This document shows positions 2,679-19,115 of a stretch of 47,387 nucleotides of DNA, piece after piece (the stretch's first letter is position 1; each line of letters opens with the position of its first letter). This DNA is from Candidatus Kerfeldbacteria bacterium RIFCSPHIGHO2_12_FULL_48_17. Its GTDB lineage: Bacteria; Patescibacteriota; Patescibacteriia; HO2-48-17. The stretch is from assembly GCA_001818775.1 (NCBI GenBank), contig MHKD01000011.1:1-47387 (forward strand), given 5' to 3'. The translations under genes and the position numbers were made by a program. The notes beneath the pieces are model-generated. The model did no database searches. It was not told the DNA's origin and was given only the letters and a program-made list of their open reading frames with translations.

Positions 2679-3443
2679 TTAATCCCATCTTAAAAATTCA
2701 ATTATGGCTTCCACGATTTTTTTTTGTTCGTGGTCGTTTGTTAAAATATGCTGATTATCATTCAAGAGCAGTTGTTTTTTTCTCTCGTCTGGAGTTTTAA
2801 TGGTTTGCATTATGAAAGCACTGCTTTTTGGATGAATAAGGGGGTCCTGTAATGATTGAATCGTATATATCGGGTGAACGATATGAGAAAGCGCTTTTTT
2901 TGTTTCCTCGATGCCACGTAAAAGCTCCTTTAATCCCTTATACGGCCATACGCTATATGCGCCCGTTTCAGCGTAATATTTTGCGCCCTCAGGGTGGTCA
3001 TGCAGATTTTCTTTGTGGAATTTTTTTAGGCGGGAAAGAATGGGCAATGCTGCCCTAATAAACGTTTTGCGCCTGAGAAAAATCGGTGTGCCCAGGCATA
3101 TGATTTTTTCAACATTCTCCGGATGCTCAGCGGCGCAGGTAATCGCCAAATTTCCACCCATGGAAACACCCAGGCAGTGCACCTTTCCATATAAATGGCG
3201 CGCGGATATAGTGGTCTCGTGAATGGCCTTTTTCCAATCTTCCCATGTTACGCGCAGAAGGTCATCAGGATGTGTGCCGTGACCCGGCAACCGTGGCACG
3301 ACAACGGAAAATCCCTTCTTTTGCAGTTCCTGAGCAAGAGGTTTCACTGCACTGGGAGTGCTCGTAAACCCATGTATAATGATAATAACCTCTTCTCCTC
3401 CCTCCAGTGAAAAACCTTCCATGTTCTCGCTGTTTCCGCCCAT
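2679..3443 (-). CDS. Alpha/beta-hydrolase, carboxylesterase/monoacylglycerol-lipase type
   Basis: Serine hydrolase of 254 residues resembling the Est30/monoacylglycerol lipase group. Visible features are the oxyanion-hole segment HGFTSTP (24-30), the nucleophile elbow GVSMGG with Ser94, and a likely triad completed by Asp200 (SLQDPL) and His232 (DNQHIL). There is no signal peptide, so it should be cytoplasmic. It starts 26 bases after the response-regulator stop and is probably the last gene of the long minus-strand operon running from 10.26 kb. A lipid or acyl-ester substrate would suit an operon that also carries a CoA-ligase-like gene and an alpha-oxoamine synthase, but that is inference from context. 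The fold and triad are well supported; the substrate is unknown. Confidence 0.85.
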   Translation of the reverse strand: MGGNSENMEGFSLEGGEEVIIIIHGFTSTPSAVKPLAQELQKKGFSVVVPRLPGHGTHPDDLLRVTWEDWKKAIHETTISARHLYGKVHCLGVSMGGNLAITCAAEHPENVEKIICLGTPIFLRRKTFIRAALPILSRLKKFHKENLHDHPEGAKYYAETGAYSVWPYKGLKELLRGIEETKKALSHIVHPIYTIQSLQDPLIHPKSSAFIMQTIKTPDERKKQLLLNDNQHILTNDHEQKKIVEAIIEFLRWD

Positions 3444-3469
3444 AATATTATTCGCTAAAAATCAACCAG

Positions 3470-3844
3470 CTACTTTAACATACTCTTGATTTTTTCGACA
3501 AGTTTATTGGGGTCAATCTGCGCTTTCACGATGTACTCTTTGGCGCCCAGCTTTTTCGCCTGGGCTATGGTGCTATCTTTCGTGAGGTTGGAAAAGATCC
3601 AGACTGGAATATCGCGGGTTTTTTTGTTTTTTTTGAGTTGCCTGAGGACTTCAATGCCGTCCATGTCGGGCATGACGAGATCAAGAAGTATGATTTTCGG
3701 CTGCTGACTTTTCGCCACAACCAGAGCGTCTTTTCCCCTCCGCGCGCCGATGGTACGCAGGTCTTCCAACTCAAATTTTGTTGAGTAGAGAAGTATTTGA
3801 TCGGGGTCGTCCTCTACGAGGAGAACATCCGGATTATCTTTCAT
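3470..3844 (-). CDS. Single-domain response regulator (CheY-like)
   Basis: Receiver domain only, 124 residues, with no DNA-binding or enzymatic output. The acidic pocket is EDD at 11-13, the phosphoacceptor is Asp55 (LLDLVMPD), the switch Ser85 lies in IFSN, and the conserved Lys107 lies in YIVKAQ. It begins 10 bases after the stop of the histidine kinase gene, so the two form a cognate pair in one transcript. With no effector domain, its output must be a protein-protein contact or relay to another protein, as for CheY or LqsR-like regulators. The receiver assignment is firm; the partner output is not visible here. Confidence 0.93.
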   Translation of the reverse strand: MKDNPDVLLVEDDPDQILLYSTKFELEDLRTIGARRGKDALVVAKSQQPKIILLDLVMPDMDGIEVLRQLKKNKKTRDIPVWIFSNLTKDSTIAQAKKLGAKEYIVKAQIDPNKLVEKIKSMLK

Positions 3845-3854
3845 ATATTTTCGT

Positions 3855-6098
3855 TTAAGACTGAGACGATGGGTGTTTTGTTATTGCGTTTGCGCCATTA
3901 ACCTTCGTTTTTGCCGCGGGGAGTTGGATGGAAAATATTGATCCCTTGTTTTCCACGCTTTCAACTGATACTTTTCCGCCCGGGTGGTTTTCCATGATTT
4001 GCTTCACTATAAAAAGACCAAGTCCCGAACCATCGGTATACATATCTATGGCATTTTTCGCGCGCATGAATTTGTCAAAAAGTTTAGGGAGATCCGCTTT
4101 TGGTATACCGATTCCGGTATCCTCGACCGATATAATAACCGTTTGGTTTTTAGAGCTCTCGGTTTTCACGCTCACTTGTATTTTTCCTTTTGCAGTATAG
4201 CGCAAAGCATTCGATATGAGATTACCGACCGCCTGTTCAAGATATTTTATATTTGTCAGAATTTTGGGAATGGATTTGCTTGGTTGTTCAAAGATCAATT
4301 TCAGTTGCTTTTTTTCCGCTTCCAGTAAGAATTCTTTCACCACTTTTTCAAGAAATTCAACGGGATCGATGACATCCTGAAGAACGAAACCGAAATTTTC
4401 CGCGTCCATTTCAGACGCCGCAAGAATGTCATTGATGATAAAGTCAAGTTTTTTCCCCTTGGTGTACGCATTTTCTATAAATTCTTTATGTTTTTCTTTT
4501 GGCAGACGATCAAGATCACCATCACGCAACATTGATAGGGTGCCATTAATAACCGATACCGGAGTTCGGAGCTGATGTGAAGCGATATCAAGAAATTCGG
4601 AACGGATTTTCAGCAGTTTTTTGAGATGAGTATTGGTTTTTGTAAGATTTTGTGTAGCCTTGGTAACTTCAATTTGCAATAGGGCGTTGAATTTTTTTGT
4701 TTCTTCGTACAGTTGCGCGTTTACCATGGCGATGGATGCCTGATTGGCTATATTTCGCAACAGGCGCAAATCTTCCAGTGTAAATGCGTCATGGGAGAGC
4801 TTGTCACCAAAAAATATCAGTGCAATTATTTTTTTGTGGGAAATTATGGGTACAAGAACGGCGATTTTAAGTTGAGTGAGTTCTTTTTTACAGATCAGAA
4901 GTGGTGCCACATATTTTTTTGCCGTCTTTTGCGTCAGATCTTCAATTTCTTCGCGCACAAGAATATCTTTGTATTCAGTCAGAAACTGATAAAGAGAATC
5001 GTTCTTCAGGAGTTCTGTAATATCCTGATGTTTCATGCCAGCGGTTTTTTTGACTGTGCAGTAGCCATGAGTTTGTTGGTCTTTTTCTTTACAGAGTACA
5101 AAAGTGTATCGCTCCGTACCCAGAGCCTGTTTCATGGTTTTTACAATCGTTGTAATTATTTGGTTTAGCTCAAGTGTTTGGGCAAGATCACGGCCGACGC
5201 GTTCGGTGATTTCCTGTGGGTCATAGAGAGACGTGAAAAAGTAACGGTTCGCAAGTTTCAGAAACCATTTCCGTAAGTATTGAAACAGAACAATACCGGC
5301 AATGAGCGCAACCGGACCCATGATGGATTCCGGCACTATTTTTCCATAGGCCAGGTTTCCGTAGATGATGAATAAGGAGATGATTACCGTGAAGACAAGC
5401 GCCCCGCCGACAACAAATATTTTGCGGAGGAAGATGCGGATGTCAAAGAGTCGATAGCGAATCATAGCATAACCAGAAGCTGCGATAAAAAATACTGAAC
5501 TTGGCGAGTCCAAAGGAATAAATGTTTCTATACCAAACAGTGGTAATAAAAAGTTCAATGTTCCTGTTGTGATACCAAAACCATACATTCCATACATCAC
5601 ATACTTTAACTGCAATTTCAAAATACCGGAACTTTTTTTATAGGTTAGATACAGCTTACCGAGTATCCAAAATATGAGAAAAATTGAATAAAAAGAAAAT
5701 ATATTAAATCCTTTTCCAAACGTTCCTTCAAAACCACCGATAAAAGTTTTTTCCGCATTTTTTATTATAAAATCTGTATATCCGAGAATAAAAAATATAG
5801 CACCTGATAGATAAATGAGTAATATTTTGTATTTGTTTTTTCTATCGTTTATTAGAACGAGAATCCAGACCAGTGCTGATGGAGCCAGTAATGCACCTGC
5901 GGCATAGCAATTACGAACCCAGAAAGTGTACGGTTGTAATGTTATTAAAATATTTGTCACTATCCAATAAGCCGTCAACCAGGCAAAGATGGTAAAGCTA
6001 ATGTTTAAAAAGGATCGGTTTTTTAATATAGCTAATATTCCTATAATCAAGGCAAGAAAAGCAGCTAAATATATTATTGCCGACAACAGTAAATTCAT
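3855..6098 (-). CDS. Membrane sensor histidine kinase (7TM-type sensor, GAF, HisKA, HATPase)
   Basis: Sensor kinase of 747 residues. The N-terminal 260 or so residues hold about seven to eight hydrophobic helices, ending at a conserved RYRLFDIRIFLRK segment. A GAF-like domain (about 300-450) and a coiled coil follow. The HisKA box carries the phosphoacceptor His508 (IASHQLRTP), and the HATPase has Asn630 in the N box (ISNALRYT), a G1 motif DTGIGIP and a G2 motif GSGLGLF. The kinase core therefore looks complete. The membrane plus GAF part is homologous to the two receptor-like proteins encoded upstream, which lack the kinase core. The gene starts one base after the stop of the 27-codon epimerase remnant and is followed by its response regulator. 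Function as a membrane sensor is secure; the ligand is unknown, and the nearby oxoamine synthase makes a self-produced signal a possibility. Confidence 0.93.
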   Translation of the reverse strand: MNLLLSAIIYLAAFLALIIGILAILKNRSFLNISFTIFAWLTAYWIVTNILITLQPYTFWVRNCYAAGALLAPSALVWILVLINDRKNKYKILLIYLSGAIFFILGYTDFIIKNAEKTFIGGFEGTFGKGFNIFSFYSIFLIFWILGKLYLTYKKSSGILKLQLKYVMYGMYGFGITTGTLNFLLPLFGIETFIPLDSPSSVFFIAASGYAMIRYRLFDIRIFLRKIFVVGGALVFTVIISLFIIYGNLAYGKIVPESIMGPVALIAGIVLFQYLRKWFLKLANRYFFTSLYDPQEITERVGRDLAQTLELNQIITTIVKTMKQALGTERYTFVLCKEKDQQTHGYCTVKKTAGMKHQDITELLKNDSLYQFLTEYKDILVREEIEDLTQKTAKKYVAPLLICKKELTQLKIAVLVPIISHKKIIALIFFGDKLSHDAFTLEDLRLLRNIANQASIAMVNAQLYEETKKFNALLQIEVTKATQNLTKTNTHLKKLLKIRSEFLDIASHQLRTPVSVINGTLSMLRDGDLDRLPKEKHKEFIENAYTKGKKLDFIINDILAASEMDAENFGFVLQDVIDPVEFLEKVVKEFLLEAEKKQLKLIFEQPSKSIPKILTNIKYLEQAVGNLISNALRYTAKGKIQVSVKTESSKNQTVIISVEDTGIGIPKADLPKLFDKFMRAKNAIDMYTDGSGLGLFIVKQIMENHPGGKVSVESVENKGSIFSIQLPAAKTKVNGANAITKHPSSQS

Positions 6099-6099
6099 G

Positions 6100-6183
6100 C
6101 TATTTTTTTAGTTTTTCAATAAGTTTCTTGACCAGATAGTAACCTAGAAAACCTGTGCCACCAGTGACAAAGTTTTTGCTCAT
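6100..6183 (-). pseudogene. N-terminal remnant of an NAD(P)-dependent epimerase/SDR (27 codons)
   Basis: A short frame reads MSKNFVTGGTGFLG and then about 13 residues ending in a lysine run and TAG. TGGTGFLG is the Rossmann dinucleotide-binding loop found at the start of extended SDR/epimerase enzymes, which are normally about 300 residues. Its ATG overlaps the TGA of the oxoamine synthase (ATGA), and its TAG sits one base before the kinase ATG. The natural reading is that an epimerase/ketoreductase once followed the synthase and was replaced by the kinase-regulator pair. The tiny frame may persist as a translational-coupling bridge. A standalone 27-residue protein is unlikely to fold as an enzyme. 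Confidence 0.7.
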
Positions 6184-7370
6184 ACGAGTATTTGTGATTT
6201 AAGAGCTGTGCAGACTTCAATAAGACGATCCATGTGCTTTTGTGTGTGTGTAGCCATGACTACGCAGCGAATTCTGGCTTTGCCTTTTGGCACGACTGGC
6301 CATCTTACACAAGGTGCTAAAATACCGGCTTCGAAAAGTTTTTCCGAAAAATGAATCGCTTTTGCTTCATCGCCGATGAGTATTGGTATGATGGGTGTTT
6401 CTGTTTCCAAGACATTTAGGTTGTTCTTACGGAGGTTTTCTATCAAGTACGTAGTGTTATTTTTTAATGAACGCACTATATGTGGATTTTCTGAAATAAG
6501 ATGAATTGCTTCTAGCGTGACGGCGGAAGCCGCTGGTGGAAGTGCTGTACTGAATATATACGAACGAGCCGTGATTCGTAAATAATCTATAAGGTTTTTG
6601 GTTCCTGCTATATATCCCCCGATGCTACCAAATGCTTTACTTAAGGTGCCCATTAAAATTGGGATATCCCTAGGTGGTATTCCAAAGTGTTCTGTCACAC
6701 CACGGCCGGTTTTTCCTAAAACCCCTATAGAGTGCGCTTCGTCGACCATGAGCATTGCTCCATATTTTTTTGCCAAGTCTACTACCTCCGGCAGTGGCGC
6801 AATATCACCGTCCATACTGAAAACGGCATCCGTAACAATAATTTTTCTTTTGTTTTCATGTTTTTTGAGTATACTCTCAAGTCCGTTGATGTCTTTATGT
6901 TTGTATATTTTTACCTCTGTTTTTGCGAGAGCACAACCATCGATGATACTAGCGTGATTAAGCTCCTCGCTTATAATGAGTGTCTTTTTTTTAAAAAGCC
7001 GGAACATATTTATTCCATTAACAAGAGCTGATATCGTTCCCACGTTTGTCATGTAGCCGGTGGCAAAAACGATCGCTGACTCGGTACCAAGGAACTGAGC
7101 TAGGGATTTTTCAAGTTTTTCGTGTACATTAATGTTGCCTGATATCAGTCGAGATGCTCCAGTGCCAACTCCGTAATGTTTGATAGTTTCTATTGCAACT
7201 TGTTTAAGACGTTCATGGTTTGCCAATCCAAGATAATCATTAGAACAGAAAAGGATGATTTTTTTACCATTAATTATGATCTCCGGATCTATGGCGGAGT
7301 CAATCGTTCGAACGATAGGATAGTAGTGGTTATCCTTGATTTTTTTTAACAATTTTTCTATTTCTAACAT
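6180..7370 (-). CDS. PLP-dependent alpha-oxoamine synthase (BioF/KBL/SPT/CqsA family)
   Basis: Enzyme of 396 residues, full length for the family. Members condense an amino acid with an acyl-CoA or acyl-ACP to form an alpha-aminoketone. Visible marks are SNDYLGL near the N-terminus, the glycine-rich GTGASRLISG loop, the HASIIDG segment, the PLP-contacting DEAHS, and the Schiff-base lysine Lys245 in GTLSKAFGS. The DEAHSIGVLGKTGRG context reads closer to serine-palmitoyltransferase-like or CqsA-like members than to KBL. No other biotin gene is nearby, so a BioF role is not favoured. The gene lies 24 bases after a receptor-like gene and overlaps the epimerase remnant by an ATGA. Family membership is firm. 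Product class (sphingoid-like base, aminoketone signal or other) is open. Confidence 0.9.
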   Translation of the reverse strand: MLEIEKLLKKIKDNHYYPIVRTIDSAIDPEIIINGKKIILFCSNDYLGLANHERLKQVAIETIKHYGVGTGASRLISGNINVHEKLEKSLAQFLGTESAIVFATGYMTNVGTISALVNGINMFRLFKKKTLIISEELNHASIIDGCALAKTEVKIYKHKDINGLESILKKHENKRKIIVTDAVFSMDGDIAPLPEVVDLAKKYGAMLMVDEAHSIGVLGKTGRGVTEHFGIPPRDIPILMGTLSKAFGSIGGYIAGTKNLIDYLRITARSYIFSTALPPAASAVTLEAIHLISENPHIVRSLKNNTTYLIENLRKNNLNVLETETPIIPILIGDEAKAIHFSEKLFEAGILAPCVRWPVVPKGKARIRCVVMATHTQKHMDRLIEVCTALKSQILV

Positions 7371-7394
7371 CTAAGTTTATTTTGTTCAGTGTTT

Positions 7395-8810
7395 TTAGTT
7401 TGTTTTCTGATTTGGATAGCCATATCGGTCATACACATTGCGCATGGTGATGTCATAGGTGACCAACCAACGGAGCATTCCTTCCATCTTTTTTCGTAAT
7501 CCTTCAATATTCATATATTCGTCTGATGACCAAGCCTCATTGTTTTCTCGATCACCGAGTAACAAAAGTCCGGAATATATCCCTTCTTGTTCCAACGGTA
7601 AAACCAGACTGATGTTATGTTTTTTCAGTTTGGCAGAGAAATCCTGTTGTTTATGGTAGTTTTTGAAATAATTTTTGGCCAGCAGACCCTGTTTCTTTTT
7701 TTCAAAAAATGTCCATATTTCGTCATAGAAACTTCTGGTTATGTAGATTTTTTTCGGATAGAAAAATAACTGCTCATCGGATCGTGGAACGAGACGTATG
7801 AATAATGCAGCAGTTTCCAGCTGCAATGTGCGCGCAATGCTCTCAAGGATGGCAGGGATTTTTTGATTGAGTGTTCCGGTTGTCTGCGTTTCCGCTTTAA
7901 TTTTACTGAGCAGTTCGATGATGTCTATATCATACGCCGGCCACAGACGATCGATGAGATTCCTGATGAGTTTTTTCAGAGTATCGAAGAAAAGTGTCAC
8001 TGCCAGAATCAAAACGATGAGCACTTGCCATTCCTGAACGGCTATGTAAGGACCCAGAACAGATTTCAGCAATAAAAAACCGTATATGAAGACTGACAGG
8101 GTGATAAAGAGTGAAGCCCCGTAGATGACTCCACGCCGGATGATAAGCTGTAAATCGAACAGACGGTGCCGCAGAATGGCATAGGCAAAACTTGAAAGAA
8201 AAATAAGCGAAGCGGGCACGTCAATCCAAATAAAACGGTCATAGCCGGTGAAAAGCGGCACCAGAAGGCTGAAAGCAAGAGGAAAAATGGCAAAGCCTAG
8301 TACACCAAATAGAATGATTTTAAGCTGCGGTTTATTTTTGGTAGTTGATTTTTTTAATTCCTGAATAATGCGGAAAGATAAGAGGATAATAAGGGCTGCT
8401 TGATACGCGGTGTAAAAGGGAAAGAGTACGCCATATTTACCATCGCTGTAGCCCAGAGCGTAGTTATGCACGTCGTATTTTATTAAATCATTTATCAACG
8501 GCAGTATGAAGAAAGTCGTCCCGAGGGAGACGAGAATAATAAGATACTTTTTGTTGCATTGTTGTTTTGTGAAGTATTCAAACCAAATAAGAGCTATAGG
8601 TGTCATGAAGGCAGGAATCGAGTAAGCTAGCCGCATAAAAATAATGTTCTGCATTATACCCTCTAAAGTATTGGTTAGGATGGAAAACATTATTATAAGA
8701 GCGAGCACCCCGAAAAGTCGATGTTCAATTTTTTTACCTGTTTTCAGGACAAAGATACCAAGTATCAAGCTGAAGAAAAATCCGAATATATAAATGGCGA
8801 GCGGGGGCAT
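7395..8810 (-). CDS. Receptor-like membrane protein: multi-TM sensor plus GAF-like domain, no kinase (copy B)
   Basis: 471 residues. The first 280 or so form about eight hydrophobic helices. They include the segment ILRHRLFDLQLIIRR, which aligns with RYRLFDIRIFLRK in the neighbouring histidine kinase. A cytoplasmic, GAF-like domain (about 290-450) follows, and the protein then ends. There is no HisKA box, no ATP-binding N or G box and no other output domain. It is a close paralogue of the gene just upstream (24-base gap) and was clearly formed by tandem duplication. It may act as a co-receptor, a decoy or a ligand-binding partner for the kinase encoded three genes downstream. The domain reading is good; the role is inference. 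Confidence 0.8.
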   Translation of the reverse strand: MPPLAIYIFGFFFSLILGIFVLKTGKKIEHRLFGVLALIIMFSILTNTLEGIMQNIIFMRLAYSIPAFMTPIALIWFEYFTKQQCNKKYLIILVSLGTTFFILPLINDLIKYDVHNYALGYSDGKYGVLFPFYTAYQAALIILLSFRIIQELKKSTTKNKPQLKIILFGVLGFAIFPLAFSLLVPLFTGYDRFIWIDVPASLIFLSSFAYAILRHRLFDLQLIIRRGVIYGASLFITLSVFIYGFLLLKSVLGPYIAVQEWQVLIVLILAVTLFFDTLKKLIRNLIDRLWPAYDIDIIELLSKIKAETQTTGTLNQKIPAILESIARTLQLETAALFIRLVPRSDEQLFFYPKKIYITRSFYDEIWTFFEKKKQGLLAKNYFKNYHKQQDFSAKLKKHNISLVLPLEQEGIYSGLLLLGDRENNEAWSSDEYMNIEGLRKKMEGMLRWLVTYDITMRNVYDRYGYPNQKTN

Positions 8811-8834
8811 AGATATGCGTTAAAAATAATTATG

Positions 8835-10259
8835 CTATCTTGCACTCTGATTTGAATGACTATATTGATCAGATAGATTGCGCATGGTGATGTCATGGGT
8901 GACCAACCAACGGAGCGTTCCTTCCATCTTTTTTCGCAAGCCGTCAATGTTTCTCAATTCATCCGGCCCCCATGCTTCACCGGTTTTTCGATTCCCAACT
9001 AACAAAAGTCCGGAATATATCCCTTCTTGTTCCAACGGTAAAACCAGACTGATGTTATGTTTTTTGAGTTTAGCAGAAAAATCTTGTTGTTTATGGTAAT
9101 TTTTATAATAGTTCCTGGCCAGCAGACCCTGCTTTTTCGTTTCAAAAAACGTCCAAATTTCCTCATAAAAACTTCTGGTTATGTAGATTTTTTTCGGATA
9201 GAAAAATAATTGTTCATCGGATCGTGGAACGAGACGTATGAATAATGCAGCAGATTCCAGCTGCAATGTGCGCGCAATGTTCTCGAGGATGGCAGGGATT
9301 TTCTGATTGAGTGTTCCGGTTGTCTGCGTTTCCGCTTCAATTTTACTGAGCAGTTCGATGATGTCTATATCATACGCCGGCCAGAATCGATTTATGACTT
9401 TCCTGATGAGATTTTTCAGGGTATCGAAGAAGAGTGTCACAGCCAGAATCAAAAGTAGGAGCACTTGCCATTCCTGAACGGCTATGTAAGGACTCAGAAC
9501 AGATTTCAGGAATAAAAAACCGTATATAAAAATTGACAGCGTGATAAAGAGCGAAGCCCCGTAGATGACTCCACGCCGGATGATAAGCTGTAAATCGAAC
9601 AGACGGTGCCGCAGGATGGCATAGGCAAAACTTGAGAGGAAAATAAGTGATGCTGGAATCTGAAGCATAACAAGGTGATTATAGCCAATGACAAGAGGGA
9701 GTAAAAGGCTGAACACAAGAGGGAAAATTGCAAAGCCTACCACACCAAATAGAATGATTTTAAGCTGCAGTTTATTTTTGGTAGTCGATTTTTTTAATTC
9801 CTGAATAATGCGAAAAACTAGCAAAATAAAAAGAGCCGCTTGATACGCGGTGTAAAAAGGCAAGAGCACACCACTCTTACCGTCAGTGTAGTAGTCTAGG
9901 GCGTAATTATGCACGTCGTATATTATTAACTTATCTATTAACGGCACTATAAAGAAAATTGTCCCTAAAAAGATGAGAACAGCCAGATATTTTTTGTTGC
10001 AGTGCTGTTTCGTAAAGTATTCAAACCAAATAAGAGCTACAGGCGTCATTAAAGCGGCTGCTGAGTAAGTAAGTTCTGTAAAAGTAATACTTCGCAACAC
10101 TCCCATAAGGATATTGAACAATATCCACAGCATTATTATCAGTGACAGAAGACCAAAGAGTTTGTGTTCTATCTTTCGCCCGGCCCTTAAAACAAAAATT
10201 CCGAGCGCAAGACTGAAAAAAAATGCAAAAATGTAGATAATGAGTGGGATCATAGACAT
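8835..10259 (-). CDS. Receptor-like membrane protein: multi-TM sensor plus GAF-like domain, no kinase (copy A)
   Basis: 474 residues and the tandem paralogue of the preceding entry, with the same layout: about eight membrane helices, the RHRLFDLQLIIRR linker, a GAF-like domain, and no kinase. By eye the C-terminal halves are nearly identical even at DNA level (three differences in the 60 bases at 7801 and 9241), whereas the first membrane helices have diverged strongly. It is the first gene of the minus-strand operon, with a plausible sigma-70 promoter about 50 bases upstream. No SD site precedes the ATG. That the divergent part holds the ligand pocket is a guess. Confidence 0.8.
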   Translation of the reverse strand: MSMIPLIIYIFAFFFSLALGIFVLRAGRKIEHKLFGLLSLIIMLWILFNILMGVLRSITFTELTYSAAALMTPVALIWFEYFTKQHCNKKYLAVLIFLGTIFFIVPLIDKLIIYDVHNYALDYYTDGKSGVLLPFYTAYQAALFILLVFRIIQELKKSTTKNKLQLKIILFGVVGFAIFPLVFSLLLPLVIGYNHLVMLQIPASLIFLSSFAYAILRHRLFDLQLIIRRGVIYGASLFITLSIFIYGFLFLKSVLSPYIAVQEWQVLLLLILAVTLFFDTLKNLIRKVINRFWPAYDIDIIELLSKIEAETQTTGTLNQKIPAILENIARTLQLESAALFIRLVPRSDEQLFFYPKKIYITRSFYEEIWTFFETKKQGLLARNYYKNYHKQQDFSAKLKKHNISLVLPLEQEGIYSGLLLVGNRKTGEAWGPDELRNIDGLRKKMEGTLRWLVTHDITMRNLSDQYSHSNQSAR

Positions 10260-10305
10260 GCGTTAAGAATAAATAAAATCCTGAAGACGCCCATCTCTGC
10301 TTAAC

Positions 10306-10333
10306 ACAGTATCTTTTCTGGTAAGTTTGTCAA
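10306..10333 (-). promoter_or_regulatory. Promoter of the receptor/synthase/kinase operon
   Basis: On the minus strand a perfect -35 TTGACA (10328-10333) is followed after 16 bases by TACTGT (10306-10311), then about 46 bases to the ATG at 10259. It would separate this operon from the CoA-ligase-like gene upstream. The -10 is only a moderate match. Confidence 0.5.
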
Positions 10334-10412
10334 ACCGTCAGCGTCTCCCAACAAAAAATTTCATAGATTTCGGCCATATTCCACAAATATGTAAACAGCG
10401 GCTGACAATTGT

Positions 10413-11834
10413 TTAAACGCGTCTGTCCACAATCCTTTTTTCTTTCAATTCACTTTCCATACCCAGTGCGTTGATGAGCAGTTGGCGATCATGCATGTTT
10501 ACCACAGGGCGCACCGCGAGTTCTCGGGCTACATATTCTTCCACCATAACATCACAGGCGGTGCATTCCTCCCCGTGCACACAGGCGACATTCACATGAA
10601 GTTCATCCAACTCAAACACGTCATTATCTTTTTTACGAATTTCCACCTGCCATTCATCTATCTCTTTCATTCCATTTAATAAAGGGTAAAAAGCGTTGAG
10701 ATTCACCAGTTCGCCTTTCACTTTGCTCAATCGTAGTTCCTTGTGTTCGGATTTTCGTTCAATTTCGTAGTGTAAACGCGGCGTCGTTCGCCCGCAGTGC
10801 GTACATGGCTCGTATGTTAATCCTGCGCACATATCCCCTGTCCGGTAACGCATCACCGTTGAACCACGCCAGTCCAGAGCAGTGTACACTATCTCACCCG
10901 GTTGCCCTTCTTTGACACGCTGTCCTTCTTCATCAACCAGTTCTACAAATTCAAGGTCTGGGTAGAGGTGATAGCCACTTTCTTCATGGCACTGCACCCA
11001 GGCTGTTTTCGCTTCCGTTGAGGCAAAAGTTGATAATATCGTTACGTCGGGAAACATTCCTTTGATTTTTTCGCGGAGTCCAGGTGAAACCCTTTCGCCG
11101 CCAAAAATTATGTGCCGAAGTTTTGGAAAGTTTCTTCCCTGGCGTTTTGCTTCTTTTACAAGATGATAACCATAGCCCGGTAAGGATATAAGAATCGTTG
11201 CTTCCATTTTTTGCAGCGCGTTCAGAATTTTTTCAGTACCGAGAATTTTACCACCGCCTGTATGAAGACAGCGTATTCCGACTGCTTCGGTTGCTTTTTG
11301 CACCTGCCAAAAGGCAAGATGGGGAGCAAAAGGGAAGGCATTGACTACTATGTCTTCTTTAGCGAGACCGGCTGTTTGAAAAATACGGCTGCCGGTTTGC
11401 GCAAGGGTCGCCAGATCGCGTGCTGAATAGAGAAAGGGAATTTGGGCGGAGCTTCGGCCGGTTGTGAAGTGTATGTGAATCGGTTTGAATTCTCTTTCCA
11501 GCGATTCATGTAGATTACCTGTGATCATGTATTTTATCAGGCGCGATTTTGGGTAATGTTTTTTTATTGCTGCCGTGTCGGGCTGCAGAATAAACTGACG
11601 GGGTTTGTCAGGAATATTTTCTGTTGGGAGAATATCCTGTTTGGAAATAAGAGGAATTTTTTGCAGATCGCCCGTGTTTTGTATATCCGACGGTTTTATT
11701 GCGTGTTTTTTCAGGTGATCGCGGAGGAAAGGATGGAAAGGCAAAAGGTGCTTTATAAAAAAGCGCAGTTTTTTGTTTTGGATATTTTCGATTTTTCGCC
11801 TGGGTAGGCGCGACAGGGTTTCCCAGTTTTTCAT
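10413..11834 (-). CDS. Adenylate-forming enzyme, phenylacetate-CoA ligase (PaaK)-like
   Basis: 473 residues of the ANL superfamily in the PaaK-like branch, which activates a carboxylic acid as an acyl-adenylate and usually passes it to CoA. Visible motifs are the phosphate-binding FTTGRSS, the STFASTEA segment near the adenine site, GEIVYT, and YRTGDM with the ribose-binding Asp. A Cys pair (PCTHCGR) typical of PaaK-like proteins follows. A C-terminal domain from about residue 370 is somewhat divergent and Cys-containing. It lies upstream of the oxoamine synthase operon on the same strand and divergent from a TrmB-like regulator. It could supply the acyl thioester that the synthase needs, but this is inferred from proximity. 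The family call is solid; the substrate is unknown. Confidence 0.82.
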   Translation of the reverse strand: MKNWETLSRLPRRKIENIQNKKLRFFIKHLLPFHPFLRDHLKKHAIKPSDIQNTGDLQKIPLISKQDILPTENIPDKPRQFILQPDTAAIKKHYPKSRLIKYMITGNLHESLEREFKPIHIHFTTGRSSAQIPFLYSARDLATLAQTGSRIFQTAGLAKEDIVVNAFPFAPHLAFWQVQKATEAVGIRCLHTGGGKILGTEKILNALQKMEATILISLPGYGYHLVKEAKRQGRNFPKLRHIIFGGERVSPGLREKIKGMFPDVTILSTFASTEAKTAWVQCHEESGYHLYPDLEFVELVDEEGQRVKEGQPGEIVYTALDWRGSTVMRYRTGDMCAGLTYEPCTHCGRTTPRLHYEIERKSEHKELRLSKVKGELVNLNAFYPLLNGMKEIDEWQVEIRKKDNDVFELDELHVNVACVHGEECTACDVMVEEYVARELAVRPVVNMHDRQLLINALGMESELKEKRIVDRRV

Positions 11835-13143: not shown

Positions 13144-13494
13144 ATGCAACGGAGGGAAAAATTACCAGCCCAGCCTGATTATCCACAGGATGATATATAC
13201 ATACAGGACGCTCAAAAAGACAGTTACCACCTGAGGCAGTTTATAAGAACGCTTGCCAATATCACACAAGAGAGACACATTCACGAAATTTTTTCTTCAC
13301 TTTATGATCCTTTTGAGATAAAGGGATTGGGAAAAAGATTTTGTTTTCTGAAACAAATGCTCAACGATATCAAAGAGCCACCGCACCCCCTGCTTCGACC
13401 GGACGATCGTTTTGCCTGGGCCAAGGTGGCTCTTATGTTTCGTTATAAAAAAAGTAAATCCCTTCTTAAAAAAATTATAGAAAAAGCTGACTGA
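13144..13494 (+). CDS. Hypothetical basic protein, 116 residues
   Basis: No family recognised. The first 75 residues are charged and probably helical. The C-terminal 40 are compact and distinctive, with PPHPLLRPDDRF, then AWAKVALMF and a lysine-rich tail. The DNA for that C-terminal part is duplicated almost perfectly 2.86 kb downstream, and the two base differences are both silent. That suggests the segment is real coding sequence. A strong terminator hairpin overlaps the stop codon. There is no SD site, as for many native genes here. It stands immediately left of the RiPP cassette, so it may be the gene disrupted or used when that cassette arrived. Confidence 0.6.
   Translation: MQRREKLPAQPDYPQDDIYIQDAQKDSYHLRQFIRTLANITQERHIHEIFSSLYDPFEIKGLGKRFCFLKQMLNDIKEPPHPLLRPDDRFAWAKVALMFRYKKSKSLLKKIIEKAD
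13365..13485 (+). repeat. 121-bp direct repeat, copy 1
   Basis: Matches 16223-16343 at 119 of 121 positions. It covers the last 40 codons of the 116-residue gene, up to a run of A. The two mismatches fall at third codon positions (Phe TTT/TTC and Ala GCC/GCT). Copies 1 and 2 bracket the radical SAM/RiPP cassette. Confidence 0.95.
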
Positions 13495-13642: not shown

Positions 13643-13670
13643 TTGTGCAATCCTCTAATTTTGTTATTAT
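13643..13670 (+). promoter_or_regulatory. Promoter of the RiPP cassette
   Basis: An extended -10 TG-T-TATTAT (TG at 13662, hexamer 13665-13670) lies 16 bases after the partial -35 TTGTGC (13643-13648). Predicted transcription starts near 13677, leaving a leader of about 60 bases before the first small ORF. Confidence 0.5.
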
Positions 13671-13738
13671 CAATGTAGATGTTTTTCAGATTATCCGAAC
13701 TCAACAGCGTAGCGACGCAAAAACCATAAGAGGTTTAT

Positions 13739-13837
13739 ATGTGTAAACGTTCTTTGAAAACATGTTTGATGACACTGGTTCTCATCTGTCTACCCGGACC
13801 GGTCGTCTGGTCGGACACAGGACAGACGCGGTTATAG
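13739..13837 (+). CDS. Small signal-peptide-like ORF (32 aa) leading the RiPP operon
   Basis: ATG at 13739 preceded by AAGAGG at SD distance. The product starts MCKRSLKTC, continues with the hydrophobic stretch LMTLVLICLPGPVVW and ends about nine residues later. It is basic at the N-terminus with a hydrophobic core, like a signal peptide or a membrane microprotein. It lies between the predicted promoter and the radical SAM gene, 34 bases upstream of the latter. It could be a secreted or membrane accessory peptide of the cassette, a leader peptide, or a fortuitous frame. Its CCGGACC/GGTCGG segment can fold into a short hairpin. Existence as a gene is uncertain. Confidence 0.4.
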   Translation: MCKRSLKTCLMTLVLICLPGPVVWSDTGQTRL

Positions 13838-13871
13838 CGTTGCTAAAACAAGCAGAAAGGAGGAGTTCATC

Positions 13872-15224
13872 ATGTCAACTAGACTCAGCGCACCCGTAGA
13901 CGTCCAAATTGAGCTGACACAAACTTGTAATTGGCAGTGTCGTCATTGTTACAATTTCTGGCGTCCAGCTCAGACAACAACGAATCTCAGTCAACATCTT
14001 TCCTGCGATAATATTATTCACATCGTGAAGGAGCTCGCCTCGAATCAAGTCCCATCAATCACAATTACCGGCGGTGAACCGTTTTCTCGGCGTAGAGAAA
14101 TTTTTATGCTACTGGAAATGACTAAGAAGGCTGGTATTCACGCATCAATCAACACAAATCTTAGTCTTGTGGGAAAAGAAGACATTGAAAAGCTCGTTGA
14201 CGAATATAACAATGTATCGATTCTCTTCTCACTTTTGTCAGCAGATGCGGCAGAGCACGAACGTCTTGCCGGTGCTCCGAGTGGCACTTACACCAAAGTA
14301 ATTAACACAGCAGCCTTAATTATCCAGCGTGGAATTCCAGTAAGTTTAAATATGGTTCTCATGCGAGAAAATCTTCATGCAATGGAGATCACTGCCCGCC
14401 TTGCTAAAAGACTTGGTACGCGCACATTTTGCGCGACCAAGGTACTCCCTAATACTCATGCGCCTGATGGTACACTTCTTCTTTCAGCAGAGGAGGTGCA
14501 TTGGTCTCTCGCTGAACTGATGCGGATTGAGGAACTGCTCGATATCCCTGTTGACATTTTAGGTTGTTATCCAAGATGTCTCCTTGTGGGCACGTCTGCG
14601 CACCAACGTTTTTCACATCGCACCTGCGTTGCTGGCTACACAACCGTTACTATCGGCGCCGATGGAGGTGTGCGACCATGCTCCCACATGGAAATGAGTT
14701 ACGGGAGTATATTTCACGAACCGCTCATTGATATCTGGGAGAAAATGGACGGCTGGCGCGAGGGTGAATTTATTCCAGAACAATGTCGTAATTGTTTGTT
14801 CCTGTCCGCATGCAGAGGAGGTTGTCGTGTTAATACACTTACGCCTGGTTTGCACAATATGGATTTTTATGCCGACCCACAGCGTCTGACCAGCTTACCA
14901 CAAAAATGTCTTACTCCCCGTATACCGGAAGAGACAAGTGATATTGTAGCCAAGTCTATAATGTGTCCGCAAGTGAAGTTTCGCAAGGAACCTTTTGGAG
15001 CGTTGATTTACACAACCAACCCCCTTGCCATCATGTTGGTAAATCACAGCACGATCGACTTTCTTATGAATGTGGCGGAAAAAAGAGAGGATTTTGACTT
15101 ATTTTCCTTCCTCGAGCAATCAGGTGCGAGAACTGAGGCAGAACGGCGTGGTGTCAAGTACCTTTATCAAAAACTCGTTCGGAAGGGATTTCTTATAACA
15201 CTAACCGAGCATGAAAGGAGGTGA
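13872..15224 (+). CDS. Radical SAM/SPASM peptide maturase with C-terminal PqqD-like recognition domain
   Basis: 450 residues. The radical SAM domain binds its [4Fe-4S] cluster through C19-x3-C23-x2-C26 (CNWQCRHC), with the SAM-binding TGGEP at 66-70. A SPASM domain follows with cysteines at 252, 270, 305, 308, 314 and 318 for auxiliary clusters. Residues about 364-447 (KFRKEPFGALIY, then AIMLVNHSTIDFL) resemble PqqD, the RiPP precursor recognition element. This layout is typical of enzymes that crosslink Cys or other side chains in ribosomal peptides (sactipeptides, ranthipeptides). It has a strong SD, AAAGGAGGA. Its stop codon lies inside the SD of the next gene, a four-cysteine peptide that is the obvious substrate. 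The enzyme class is secure; the exact chemistry is not. Confidence 0.92.
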   Translation: MSTRLSAPVDVQIELTQTCNWQCRHCYNFWRPAQTTTNLSQHLSCDNIIHIVKELASNQVPSITITGGEPFSRRREIFMLLEMTKKAGIHASINTNLSLVGKEDIEKLVDEYNNVSILFSLLSADAAEHERLAGAPSGTYTKVINTAALIIQRGIPVSLNMVLMRENLHAMEITARLAKRLGTRTFCATKVLPNTHAPDGTLLLSAEEVHWSLAELMRIEELLDIPVDILGCYPRCLLVGTSAHQRFSHRTCVAGYTTVTIGADGGVRPCSHMEMSYGSIFHEPLIDIWEKMDGWREGEFIPEQCRNCLFLSACRGGCRVNTLTPGLHNMDFYADPQRLTSLPQKCLTPRIPEETSDIVAKSIMCPQVKFRKEPFGALIYTTNPLAIMLVNHSTIDFLMNVAEKREDFDLFSFLEQSGARTEAERRGVKYLYQKLVRKGFLITLTEHERR

Positions 15225-15229
15225 TAATT

Positions 15230-15391
15230 ATGCAACAAGAAATTTTTGATGAATTAGTCGATTCGGATGAACACAATGAACAGAGAGAAGTGTTCGCTGA
15301 AGTATCGCTATTCGACGCAGAGATGGTCGGTGGCGATGAAAGCGGTGACTGCGCTTGTTTCAATTGTGATGGAAATCCTTGTCACAAATGA
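15230..15391 (+). CDS. Candidate RiPP precursor peptide, four-Cys core (53 aa)
   Basis: ATG at 15230 is preceded by AAAGGAGGTGAT, an essentially perfect anti-SD complement that also contains the stop of the maturase gene. The first 33 or so residues are acidic and leader-like (EIFDELV, then VSLFDAEMV). A Gly-Gly pair follows at 34-35, then an 18-residue tail with Cys 41, 43, 46 and 51 (CACFNCDGNPC) ending CHK. The leader/GG/Cys-rich layout directly after a SPASM maturase with an RRE is what is expected of a thioether-crosslinked peptide substrate. The strong ribosome site implies high output. Leader cleavage after GG is inferred. No dedicated transporter or C39 protease is visible in the window. 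Confidence 0.85.
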   Translation: MQQEIFDELVDSDEHNEQREVFAEVSLFDAEMVGGDESGDCACFNCDGNPCHK

Positions 15392-15419
15392 TTATTTGAT
15401 GCACATTTTTCGTAACATC

Positions 15420-15446
15420 AAGGGGAGGTTTATTACACTTCCCCTT
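15420..15446. terminator. Bidirectional terminator between precursor and peptidase genes
   Basis: AAGGGGA at 15420-15426 pairs with TCCCCTT at 15440-15446 around a loop of about 13 bases. It lies 28 bases after the precursor stop and immediately after the peptidase stop on the other strand. A T-rich stretch follows on the plus strand. Confidence 0.6.
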
Positions 15447-15447
15447 C

Positions 15448-16122
15448 TTATTTTACAAAATATTTTTTGAAATCTGCCATCACATCATGGGGATTATCAC
15501 CGAAATAGAGTGGAATACTTGTTACGGAAAAACGTGTTAATTTATGGGAATTTATTGCTGCAATAAATTTTTTCCATCCGTACAACCTTACAAAAAACAT
15601 AACGAGCAAACCGGCAATATTATAGCCGTTGTATTTTGCGGCAAATTTCCAGGAAACACCCCTGAACGGTATGTTTTTCTGCGCGATTTTTTTCCAATCC
15701 GTGGTTGATATGGAAGGTTTAAAGATTTGAGCTGCAACATATACCGATATTCCTTCCTTTAACCAATCCGACAATTTTGGATTTAATATATTTATATAAA
15801 GATGGGTCATTTCATGCAATAGTACCTGGCTTAATGTCTTCTTTGATGTGATACTGTCTTTATTATCAAATATGTAAATACAGGAGGTACTGTTTTTGGG
15901 CACATGAGCTATGAACCAGGTTGGCACCTTTTTAGTGGGAAGCGTTTTTAAAAAAGAGTTTTTATTTCGAAAAATGTGAACTGTAAGAGAAAGAAGCTGA
16001 ACAGGAAACATTCTAGCCAGTTTTTGCATATTTGAATGAGTATGCCTGATGTAAAAATCCTTTTGATATGTTCCTGGTTCGAATACAAATTTTATTTTTG
16101 TTTTCCGTCTTCTGTTGGTCAT
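15448..16122 (-). CDS. Putative zinc metallopeptidase (HExxH, gluzincin-like)
   Basis: 224 residues with HEMTH as the zinc-binding HExxH and a downstream WLKEGISVYVA in which the Glu can be the third ligand. This spacing fits gluzincins of the MA clan (M1-like fold, minimal size). The N-terminus is basic with no clear signal peptide; one hydrophobic segment (AGLLVMFFVRLYG) lies near the C-terminus. It converges on the RiPP operon, shares a terminator with it, and lies between the two 121-bp repeats, so it belongs physically to the same cassette. Leader removal from the precursor, or degradation of the modified peptide, are natural hypotheses but unproven. The catalytic motif is clear; the substrate is unknown. 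Confidence 0.75.
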   Translation of the reverse strand: MTNRRRKTKIKFVFEPGTYQKDFYIRHTHSNMQKLARMFPVQLLSLTVHIFRNKNSFLKTLPTKKVPTWFIAHVPKNSTSCIYIFDNKDSITSKKTLSQVLLHEMTHLYINILNPKLSDWLKEGISVYVAAQIFKPSISTTDWKKIAQKNIPFRGVSWKFAAKYNGYNIAGLLVMFFVRLYGWKKFIAAINSHKLTRFSVTSIPLYFGDNPHDVMADFKKYFVK

Positions 16123-16189: not shown

Positions 16190-16222
16190 TATTGCGCAAT
16201 GCGTTTTATATCGAGTTCCCAG

Positions 16223-16343
16223 CGATATCAAAGAGCCACCGCACCCCCTGCTTCGACCGGACGATCGTTTCGCTTGGGCCAAGGTGGCTCTTATGTTTCG
16301 TTATAAAAAAAGTAAATCCCTTCTTAAAAAAATTATAGAAAAA
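16223..16343 (+). repeat. 121-bp direct repeat, copy 2 (detached 3' end of the 116-residue gene)
   Basis: Second copy of 13365-13485. It is still open, reading DIKEPPHPLLRP onward to IIEKNSR with a stop at 16353-16355. It is joined upstream to unrelated sequence, so it encodes only the C-terminal 40 residues. A chimeric 60-codon frame from 16173 is possible, but it has no visible ribosome site. It marks the right edge of the cassette. Confidence 0.9.
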
Positions 16344-16510: not shown

Positions 16511-18238
16511 TCATTCTTTCACTAAATCGTTGAGATTATATGGTTTTGTCAATTCTTTCTTGATTTCTTCAAGTTTCTCAATTTCAATCTTCTCATATAA
16601 TGGTTTTGGCTTATGAATTCTGTGACCCTTGGAAATATCCATCTTGGAAGCTTTTTCCCAAATTTCAGGCGTGTCCAGTGAGCCGCTAAAGTTCAATTGA
16701 TTATTCCAAAGTTCCTGCATTCCGGTTGGCATAATTGGCGACAAAACAATTGCCAAAGATTTTGCTAAGTTAAGGGTGATGTATAAAACCTTTTTTGCAG
16801 ATTCCAAATCTCCTTTTTTTACCAGCGACCAGGGTTCTTTCCTGTCCAAATAGACATTCCCTTCTCTGGCGTAATCAAGCATTTTTTGATATGCCGCTCG
16901 AAATTCCGTTTTGAACAACAATTTACCAATCTCTTCTGGGGTTGTTTTAATGGACGAAATCAGGTTTCTGTCCAACTCATCGTTATTGGTCAACTGTTCT
17001 GCGTCAATACCGAGGGAGCCATTAAAATTATTCCAGATTACATTCAGTGTTCGATTGAAAAAATTTCCGATTTTACCGATTACCTCACTGTTTGTGTGCA
17101 GCCGATACTCGTTCCATTGGAACAGTGAATCTTTGGTTTCCGGAATAACTGAAGTCAGGTACGCCCTGAGTGTGTCGATATTAATGTCAGAATTTAATAT
17201 ATTGTAGCAAAACACGCCAACTCCCTTGCTTTTGGAAAATTTTTTTCCTTCATAGTTGAGATAATGGAATCCGACTATCTTATAGGGCATGGAGTATCCG
17301 CCGTGAGCTATCAGCATGCCCGGCCAAAAAATTGTGTGAAACGGTATATTATCTTTTCCTAAAAAATGAAATATCTTGCTTTTAGTATTTTTCCAATATC
17401 GCTCATAATACTGATTACCCAATTCTTTAGTGAAGGTGATATATCCGATCGGTGCGTCAAACCATACATAAAAAACTTTATTTTTAAACTCCGGAACAGG
17501 AACACTCACCCCCCAAGTCAAATCTCTGGTTATTGATCTGGGTTTGAGTCCGTCGTCAATCCATTTTTTTGCGATACTGTATACGTGATTGTTCCAGATT
17601 CCTTTTTTACTCTCCACCCATGCGTCAATTTTTTTCGATAATTTCTCCAAATCGAGAAACAAATGAGGTGAGAGTTTGTATGTTGGAATTTCACCACATA
17701 TCCTGCATCGTGCATCAATTAACTCACCCGGATTGATGACAGTGCTGCATGTTTCACACTGGTCGGCGTATGCCGATGTGTAGCCGCATGTTGGACACGT
17801 ACCAATCACAAATCGATCCGGCAGAAACAGTGAATCGCGTTGGCAAAAGTACATCTTCAATTCTTCTCTGTGCAGATAAACTCCTTTGGCATCAATCACC
17901 TTAAAAAAATCCTTTGTCACTTCATGGTGAATCGATTTCGATGTTCTGGAATAATTGGTATAGCTGATATTCAGCTTCTTATATACATTTTTGTGAATTG
18001 CGTGTAAACGATCCGTTAATTGTTTCACAGGAATTCCCAATTCCTGAGCCGCGATCACCGACGGCGTGCCGTGTTCATCTGATCCCCCGATAAATGTAAC
18101 GTCGTGTCCCTTTGCTCTGCAGAAACGATAAAAGATATCGGCTGGAAGATGAGAGCCGACAATATGGCCCAGATGGGGCACGTTATTGATGTAGGGCAAT
18201 GCGGCGGTGATAAGTATGGTTTCTTTTTCCGTAGGCAT
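16511..18238 (-). CDS. metG: Methionyl-tRNA synthetase
   Basis: Charges tRNA-Met. The start was placed at the ATG giving MPTEKETILITAALPY, because the frame further upstream is unconserved and overlaps prmC; the protein is then 575 residues. Visible are the class I HIGH-type motif PHLGHIVG, the substrate segment GSDEHGTPS, two CxxC pairs of the zinc knuckle (CPTC/CETC and CRIC), and the KMSKS-type motif KFSKS. An anticodon-binding helical domain follows, without the C-terminal tRNA-binding (Trbp111-like) extension. It begins 10 bases after prmC, in the prfA-capA-prmC-metG run. Identification is secure. Confidence 0.95.
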   Translation of the reverse strand: MPTEKETILITAALPYINNVPHLGHIVGSHLPADIFYRFCRAKGHDVTFIGGSDEHGTPSVIAAQELGIPVKQLTDRLHAIHKNVYKKLNISYTNYSRTSKSIHHEVTKDFFKVIDAKGVYLHREELKMYFCQRDSLFLPDRFVIGTCPTCGYTSAYADQCETCSTVINPGELIDARCRICGEIPTYKLSPHLFLDLEKLSKKIDAWVESKKGIWNNHVYSIAKKWIDDGLKPRSITRDLTWGVSVPVPEFKNKVFYVWFDAPIGYITFTKELGNQYYERYWKNTKSKIFHFLGKDNIPFHTIFWPGMLIAHGGYSMPYKIVGFHYLNYEGKKFSKSKGVGVFCYNILNSDINIDTLRAYLTSVIPETKDSLFQWNEYRLHTNSEVIGKIGNFFNRTLNVIWNNFNGSLGIDAEQLTNNDELDRNLISSIKTTPEEIGKLLFKTEFRAAYQKMLDYAREGNVYLDRKEPWSLVKKGDLESAKKVLYITLNLAKSLAIVLSPIMPTGMQELWNNQLNFSGSLDTPEIWEKASKMDISKGHRIHKPKPLYEKIEIEKLEEIKKELTKPYNLNDLVKE

Positions 18239-18248
18239 ATGTTTAATT

Positions 18249-19115
18249 TTATTTTTTGAGCTTGATTTCGGCCACGCGTTCAATACCGGCCAGGTCTTTG
18301 TGAAAAGTAGCATTTGCTTTAACACTCCGGGCAAGTCGTTGCATAAGCGGTGCCTGGCGGTGCCCAATTTCCAGAAAAATCCGCCCACCGGGTGTGAGAT
18401 GGTCGCGGGCTTGGTCGAGAAATTTTTTAAAAAATTGCCGCGGTGTCATATTGTTCGGTGCCAAAGCCAGGCGCGGTTCAAAGTGCAAACCTCGTTTGCC
18501 CGCTTCTTGTCGAGTTAAATAGGGTGGATTGGACACAATCACGTCGTAGCGGCCCAAGCGCGCTGATGCCAACAGATCCGAATGCACAAATTTTACCTGC
18601 GCACCCAAACGACGCGCATTTTTTCGTGCCACCTGCAAAGCTGCCCCGGAAATATCCGTGGCCATAACTTCTGCCGTGGGAAAATGTTTCTTGATACTTA
18701 CCGCCACGCACCCCGAGCCGGTACCAATATCCAAAACGCGCAATGTGCCGCCGCCGAGCCCGCACAACCGCAAAAAATCCAAAACCCGCTCCACGAGAAT
18801 TTCCGTATCGGGCCGGGGTATCAACACTGCTCGACTCACGCTAAAATCCAGACCAAAAAATTTCCGCACGCGCGTAATATAGGCTACGGGTTCACCGCCG
18901 CCACGGCGCCGCAGCAAAGACCGAAAACGTCGTAACTCACCAGCCATCAAAACACGGTCACTATGCGCAAACATATATTCACGTGACCGACCCAATACCA
19001 ACCCAAGTAATACTTCCGCATCTAAATCCGGCGTCGCTCCAACAGTCGCTCCACTACCTGCTCCCGCAGTTTTCAAATCTTTCCGCGCCCAAACCAGCGC
19101 CTGTTGAATATTCAT
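18249..19115 (-). CDS. prmC: Release factor glutamine methyltransferase PrmC/HemK
   Basis: N5-methylates the Gln of the GGQ motif in release factors. 288 residues: an N-terminal helical domain that binds the factor (to about 85), the SAM-binding LDIGTGSGCVAVSI, and the diagnostic NPPY in VSNPPYLTRQE. It is encoded in the same run as prfA, its substrate, and separated from it only by the CapA-like gene. The region is GC-rich compared with the neighbouring metG. Identification is firm. Confidence 0.94.
   Translation of the reverse strand: MNIQQALVWARKDLKTAGAGSGATVGATPDLDAEVLLGLVLGRSREYMFAHSDRVLMAGELRRFRSLLRRRGGGEPVAYITRVRKFFGLDFSVSRAVLIPRPDTEILVERVLDFLRLCGLGGGTLRVLDIGTGSGCVAVSIKKHFPTAEVMATDISGAALQVARKNARRLGAQVKFVHSDLLASARLGRYDVIVSNPPYLTRQEAGKRGLHFEPRLALAPNNMTPRQFFKKFLDQARDHLTPGGRIFLEIGHRQAPLMQRLARSVKANATFHKDLAGIERVAEIKLKK

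Follow-up and report, generated by a model that had tools for sequence, protein, structure and literature searches.

Thioether formation is the commonest reaction of SPASM enzymes on cysteine-rich peptides, and two groups of such products are distinguished by the attachment of the cysteine sulfur, which is joined to an alpha carbon in sactipeptides and to aspartate or glutamate away from the alpha carbon in ranthipeptides, where the known PapA core displays the spacing CX3D. The maturases of both groups (PapB, AlbA, SkfB, StsB and SCIFF systems) carry an N-terminal recognition domain. The tiny bacteria of the CPR make up a very large share of bacterial diversity, are for the most part uncultured and episymbiotic, and are the source of few known specialised metabolites. 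The nearest precedent for the locus described here is found in graspetide loci of the CPR, which can include SPASM and zincin genes; these loci fall into branches 1 and 2, the latter often encoding a SPASM maturase and peptidases of the zincin superfamily. They are defined by their ATP-grasp enzyme, and for branch 2 most precursors have not been found (PMC8939145). In other RiPPs, metallopeptidases including M1 enzymes are leader peptidases (PMC10885120, PMC13039773). A literature search retrieved no description of the family reported below, which does not exclude that it has been described elsewhere.

The window, i.e. the whole stretch of DNA analysed, is a contig of 47,387 nt from a 1.22-Mb genome, the nearest relative of which (G001) is from the same family. 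Positions 13872–16122 encode a radical SAM/SPASM maturase, a Cys-rich peptide and a HExxH zincin (Table 1), in which an earlier note made from the sequence alone had seen a candidate undescribed RiPP cassette beginning at position 13643; the start is misplaced, as the maturase begins about 230 nt further downstream. These genes are interpreted as a minimal RiPP cassette of a Patescibacteria-wide family, in which a Cys-Asp core would be modified by the radical SAM enzyme and freed of its leader by the cytosolic zincin, a reading to which a probability of roughly 0.78 is assigned, chemistry and peptidase role being inferred. That the cassette is a RiPP system at all is very likely, with modification of the core unproven. 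As far as can be judged from sequence, the general RiPP criterion (a short leader-core precursor beside a modifying enzyme, conserved together) is met.

Table 1. Features of the cassette and its flanks (positions in the window)
Feature	Coordinates	Strand	Basis or remark
Left copy of 124-bp direct repeat	13362..13485	+	Copies 98% identical, only two in the genome
Radical SAM/SPASM peptide maturase, 450 aa	13872..15224	+	Pfam PF04055, PF13186; 20 full-length relatives
CxxxCxxC for radical SAM [4Fe-4S] cluster, residues 19-26	13926..13949	+	Cysteines invariant in 21/21 aligned maturases
SPASM domain, C252-x12-G-x4-C270 ... C305-x2-C308-x5-C314-x3-C318	14625..14825	+	Pfam SPASM in 21/21; cysteines (nearly) invariant
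MftB-like RiPP recognition element, residues 364-442	14961..15197	+	NCBIfam TIGR03967; hhalign against MftB
Precursor Shine-Dalgarno AGGAGG, abutting maturase stop TGA (15222-15224)	15216..15221	+	Sequence
Precursor peptide gene, 53 aa, ATG at 15230	15230..15391	+	L021 and L022 conserve it; each of the 21 family loci has an analogue
Putative leader recognition motif VFAEVSLFDAEM	15290..15325	+	Conserved in close trio; fits family leader motif
Core peptide CACFNCDGNPCHK	15350..15388	+	[DE]C-x(1,2)-CFxCDxNPCxK in close trio
Type A zincin of 224 aa, cytosolic, predicted to cleave off the leader	15448..16122	-	BSP/Peptidase_MA_2; N-terminus without a strongly hydrophobic segment
HEMTH zinc-binding motif, residues 103-107, then WLKEG	15802..15816	-	H103, E104, H107, E123 invariant in three close peptidases
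Right copy of 124-bp direct repeat	16220..16343	+	Strong hairpin fold, z -3.7

The assignment of the first gene to the radical SAM/SPASM enzymes is borne out by Pfam (Radical_SAM, E 1.9e-23; SPASM, E 1.7e-7) and by the CxxxCxxC and SPASM cysteines. The 53-residue peptide (MQQEIFDELVDSDEHNEQREVFAEVSLFDAEMVGGDESGDCACFNCDGNPCHK) gave no Pfam or NCBIfam match, and no family in either database covers the precursor or the maturase. Translational coupling of the two genes, as the earlier note had it, is inferred from the precursor Shine-Dalgarno sequence, which adjoins the maturase stop codon. The third product, rightly taken for a HExxH peptidase, shows only weak clan MA Pfam matches, and meets the zincin criterion of that clan by its HEMTH motif and downstream E123, from which catalysis is inferred. 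In the proposed mechanism, the leader of the short peptide would be bound by the C-terminal MftB-like domain of the maturase, the radical SAM cluster and the SPASM auxiliary clusters would modify the Cys/Asp-rich core, and the adjoining cytosolic zincin would then cut off the leader.

A profile search with the close set and one diverged locus as query retrieved full-length maturase relatives (250–900 bits) from 12 of 381 genomes of the class, while a separate sample of the phylum contained them in about 9 of 380 genomes, together with one truncated copy and one with an in-frame TGA. The cassette is found in roughly 2–3% of the sampled species. Outside the close trio (window, L021 and L022), identity to the window maturase is 26–34%, and all family maturases form one clade on the maturase tree (support 100/99). 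The presence of such genes in a CPR genome, which had been considered unusual, is confirmed but not isolated, as about 20 diverged relatives occur across Patescibacteria. The copy with the in-frame TGA (L089:6178-6873; G226:C1:296156-296851) may be a disrupted gene or one in which TGA is recoded as sense. Viral contigs contained a single distant relative (L026), which lacks the recognition domain, while all plasmid matches in tblastn were below 60% identity, the best being mostly of PqqE and MftC types.

The earlier note would have been refuted if precursor and maturase did not occur together in relatives, but a Cys-rich small ORF lies beside the maturase in 21 of 21 aligned family loci by eye and in 18 of 21 by a strict automatic rule, which supports the reading as an undescribed cassette. 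By the same fixed rules, only 6 of 37 other SPASM-type loci of the phylum possess a precursor (Fisher P 2.5e-7). A HExxH protein is encoded within 1.4 kb of the maturase in 19 of 21 family loci against 4 of 37 control loci (Fisher P 1.6e-9); its absence from L061 is uninformative, because the maturase there lies 125 bp from the contig end. Both P values are optimistic, since the scoring rules were fixed only after the first loci had been seen and near-duplicates are present in the family (window/L021/L022 and L079/L084) as well as among the controls, several of which were fetched twice; the contrast itself is not in doubt. L087 (5900-7897) has three Cys/Asp-rich precursor genes that differ from one another, accompanied by two zincins, each of its own type.

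The precursor leaders share a short hydrophobic motif (for example PFAGMKL, IFAAMEI, FGYSSL, GFESL and VFAEVSL), which at 11.3 bits has a higher information content than any of 12 shuffles (maximum 9.99). A cleavage site common to the precursors was not recognised. The GG pair pointed out in the window precursor does not qualify as a feature of the family, as both L021 and L022 have GS in its place, and the pair is ruled out as a cleavage site for the same reason. Cysteine and aspartate account for 24% and 22% of the residues of the family cores, where the dipeptide Cys-Asp occurs 58 times, while shuffled cores give 26.8 +/- 3.7 (z 8.5, about twice chance), Cys-Cys is never observed against 25.8 expected, and CxC is present in 19 of 22 cores; together these features argue for selection on a Cys-Asp pattern, so far as composition and order can indicate it. 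The CACFNCDGNPC-type core had also been called unusual, and an exact-pattern search of 380 genomes of the phylum indeed gave no match outside this genome. The core sequence is therefore rare while the architecture is not, and the window core belongs to a Cys-Asp-rich set without a fixed motif.

The modification would most plausibly consist of thioether crosslinks from the Cys sulfur to a neighbouring residue, with Asp as the most frequent candidate. This is a default reading, resting on the commonest reaction of SPASM enzymes on Cys-rich peptides: the family cores show no excess of the PapA-like CX3D spacing (+4 spacing, 23 observed against 22.6 shuffled), of which the window core contains one (C43 to D47), and there is no close characterised maturase. 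Crosslinking is consequently inferred only, and the odds on thioether chemistry are put at even. The (Cys-Asp)n cores could instead handle metals, as a ribosomal phytochelatin analogue or a metallophore whose metal binding is tuned by a non-thioether modification that leaves free thiols. Sequences such as CDCDCDCD and CYCDCGCDCY, in addition to the composition and the CxC spacing without CC given above, would suit such a function, but few residues of the window core are acidic, the loci showed no recurring metal transporter gene, and extensive crosslinking by the maturase would use up the thiols, which leaves metal handling unlikely though still to be reckoned with.

Leader removal, the last step of the preferred reading, requires a peptidase, and the HExxH proteins of the loci fall by all-against-all BLAST into type A (HExxH ... 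WLxEG; 12 members including that of the window), type B (HELxH ... LKEA; 12 members, mostly without a Pfam match) and the smaller type C, which is common to family and non-family loci; at least two of the groups are unrelated by BLAST. None of the HExxH proteins has an obvious signal peptide. The convergent orientation of the peptidase is found in the three closest loci and two others but does not extend to the rest of the family. At least 8 changes of peptidase type have to be assumed on the maturase tree, and since one zincin type replaces another at the same place, a proteolytic step, most simply leader removal, seems to be functionally required, as inferred from gene content. In their predicted role the cassette zincins resemble AplP and NosP, M1-type proteases that remove RiPP leaders (PMC10885120, PMC13039773), and those of type A carry a gluzincin-like HExxH ... 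WLxEG arrangement, but they have about 205–270 residues, are encoded within the cassette, and at other loci are of a second type mostly unassigned by Pfam.

Beyond the family, unrelated CPR radical SAM maturases with convincing Cys-rich precursors adjoin a HExxH gene as well in L010/L044, L018 and L019, while that of L016 does not; the former loci suggest a general partnership of zincins with CPR peptide pathways. Rather than a leader peptidase, the zincin might be an immunity or turnover protease which destroys the peptide, or the target or chaperone of the peptide, as L057, L060, L080, L083 and L087 each encode two zincins of different types, beyond the need of leader removal. A processing step that is required predicts what is seen, namely that at least one zincin is nearly always there while its type is exchanged, and the Cys-rich precursors in L010, L018 and L019 have zincin neighbours too, so that such roles are improbable without being excluded. 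That the zincin acts on the peptide is considered probable, the substrate relationship and leader removal being inferences.

The maturase falls short of the cut-offs of all NCBIfam maturase models shown, including the best match, NirJ2 (97 bits, cut-off 500), the ranthipeptide model PapB NF047865 (52 against 340 bits), the sactipeptide models AlbA (64.5/850), SkfB (67.8/300) and StsB (68.6/625), and MftC (68.1 bits, cut-off 265). As no characterised peptide maturase matches it closely, its reaction cannot be inferred by homology. The cassette has a SPASM maturase, a recognition element and a Cys-rich peptide in common with ranthipeptides and sactipeptides, but it differs from them in these scores, in the C-terminal position of the recognition domain, in the Cys-Asp core and in the zincin partner.

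About 87 C-terminal residues of the maturase match MftB TIGR03967 (E 2.7e-7; 30.8 bits, equivalog cut-off 33) over model positions 8–83 of 85, and the same model matches 7 of 10 tested family members (best 3e-8). Hhalign against a single MftB sequence gave E 1e-4, compared with 0.23 or higher for 20 column shuffles. The order bbb-aaa, a defining trait of recognition elements (PMC12710340), appears in this domain in an AlphaFold model of low confidence; the AlphaFold models, at mean pLDDT 49.6 and 52.5, are too poor for a fold search of maturase or peptidase. By these profile matches, and without binding data, the maturase is assigned a C-terminal MftB-like RiPP recognition element. The PqqD-like domain of the earlier note accordingly survives as a recognition element, but of the MftB kind; PqqD homology is not significant by Pfam (0/21) or hhalign.

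The likeness of this domain to the mycofactocin chaperone, over almost its whole length, and the weak matches of PqqE and mycofactocin maturase models to the rSAM-SPASM part would be expected if the maturase made a cofactor-like small molecule from the peptide, comparable to PQQ or mycofactocin, and not a bioactive peptide. MftB is, however, a separate protein, and the cassette precursors match no NCBIfam precursor model, MftA included. Cofactor precursors have conserved core residues, whereas the cores here are variable as well as long and repetitive; with no downstream redox enzyme seen travelling with the cassette either, such a product is very doubtful.

The RiPP cassette proposed here resembles the CPR graspetide loci in its occurrence in CPR genomes and in the SPASM and zincin genes that those may have, but its precursor, recognition domain and peptidase association are defined without ATP-grasp. 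An ATP-grasp gene lies within 5.5 kb in only 3 of 22 loci and none is near the window cassette, so the graspetide criterion is not met. The two kinds of locus can co-occur, as MvdD-like ATP-grasp genes are located near the cassette in L021, L058 and L080. In L058 (12476-13667) the MvdD-like ATP-grasp, about 2 kb from the cassette, adjoins a small ORF with PFFLDFALILPD, which is like a graspetide leader motif.

L021 (Parcubacteria GW2011_GWC1_45_13) and L022 (Kerfeldbacteria) have the three genes of the window in identical content and order, their products being 73–75% (maturase), 58–66% (precursor) and 61–63% (peptidase) identical to those of the window. In the three close genomes the triad is a block of about 2.3 kb with unrelated flanks. 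L021 and L022 share 86% nucleotide identity over 5890-8231 and none elsewhere in loci of about 10–13 kb, while the release-factor protein (prf) of their genomes is only 52% identical; because of this disparity, the cassette seems to be transferred horizontally in one piece, as far as comparison of these loci allows. Prf was taken as the yardstick, metG being unsuitable, as the window metG is itself poorly matched in relatives. The methionyl-tRNA-synthetase-like gene of the window (16511-18388, minus strand) is 26–37% identical to its best matches in two relatives and may be foreign.

The window cassette is flanked by the 124-bp direct repeats of Table 1, found nowhere else in the genome, and an Rfam search of the region gave no match. 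An ORF at 13144-13494 shows weak Trp-repressor-like similarity (below cut-off), which stops where the left repeat starts; neither an empty site nor a relative of this interrupted ORF was found in two related genomes. Serine-recombinase-like genes or fragments, identified by eye, are located upstream in L022 and L084. No dedicated exporter or recurring transporter was seen in the cassette neighbourhoods.

The precursors of the close trio differ by a one-codon in-frame indel between the first two cysteines, and their dN/dS of 0.19–0.26 in two of three close pairs (dS being saturated in the third) places them, on codon evidence, under purifying selection. Neither short ORFs nor HExxH motifs are in principle rare, but the view that the small ORFs are non-coding and their HExxH neighbours accidental, for which no specific result speaks, can be set aside in the face of the conserved frame and low dN/dS, the enrichment over controls and the non-random core signature.

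The recurring three-gene kit suggests that a class of modified peptides has been overlooked and offers small, expressible gene sets for finding what CPR cells make; it also adds a new SPASM maturase branch, whose recognition domain is unusually placed and whose cores follow a Cys-Asp code, and generalises the idea of soluble zincins as RiPP processing enzymes of the CPR. A more far-reaching proposal, which is speculative, is that of an unrecognised, horizontally exchanged RiPP class common in Patescibacteria, in which a new SPASM branch and interchangeable cytosolic zincins would yield phytochelatin-like metal-binding or host-directed peptides from Cys-Asp-repeat cores. Elsewhere in the window, the minus strand of 2679-11834 encodes a response regulator, a GAF histidine kinase, a BioF/Kbl-type synthase, a PaaK/FlxY-like AMP ligase and an alpha/beta hydrolase, as well as a tandem pair of membrane proteins that have the 7TM part of a sensor kinase and nothing else of it, and is possibly a set of autoinducer- or lipid-forming genes with their own sensors in a CPR genome.
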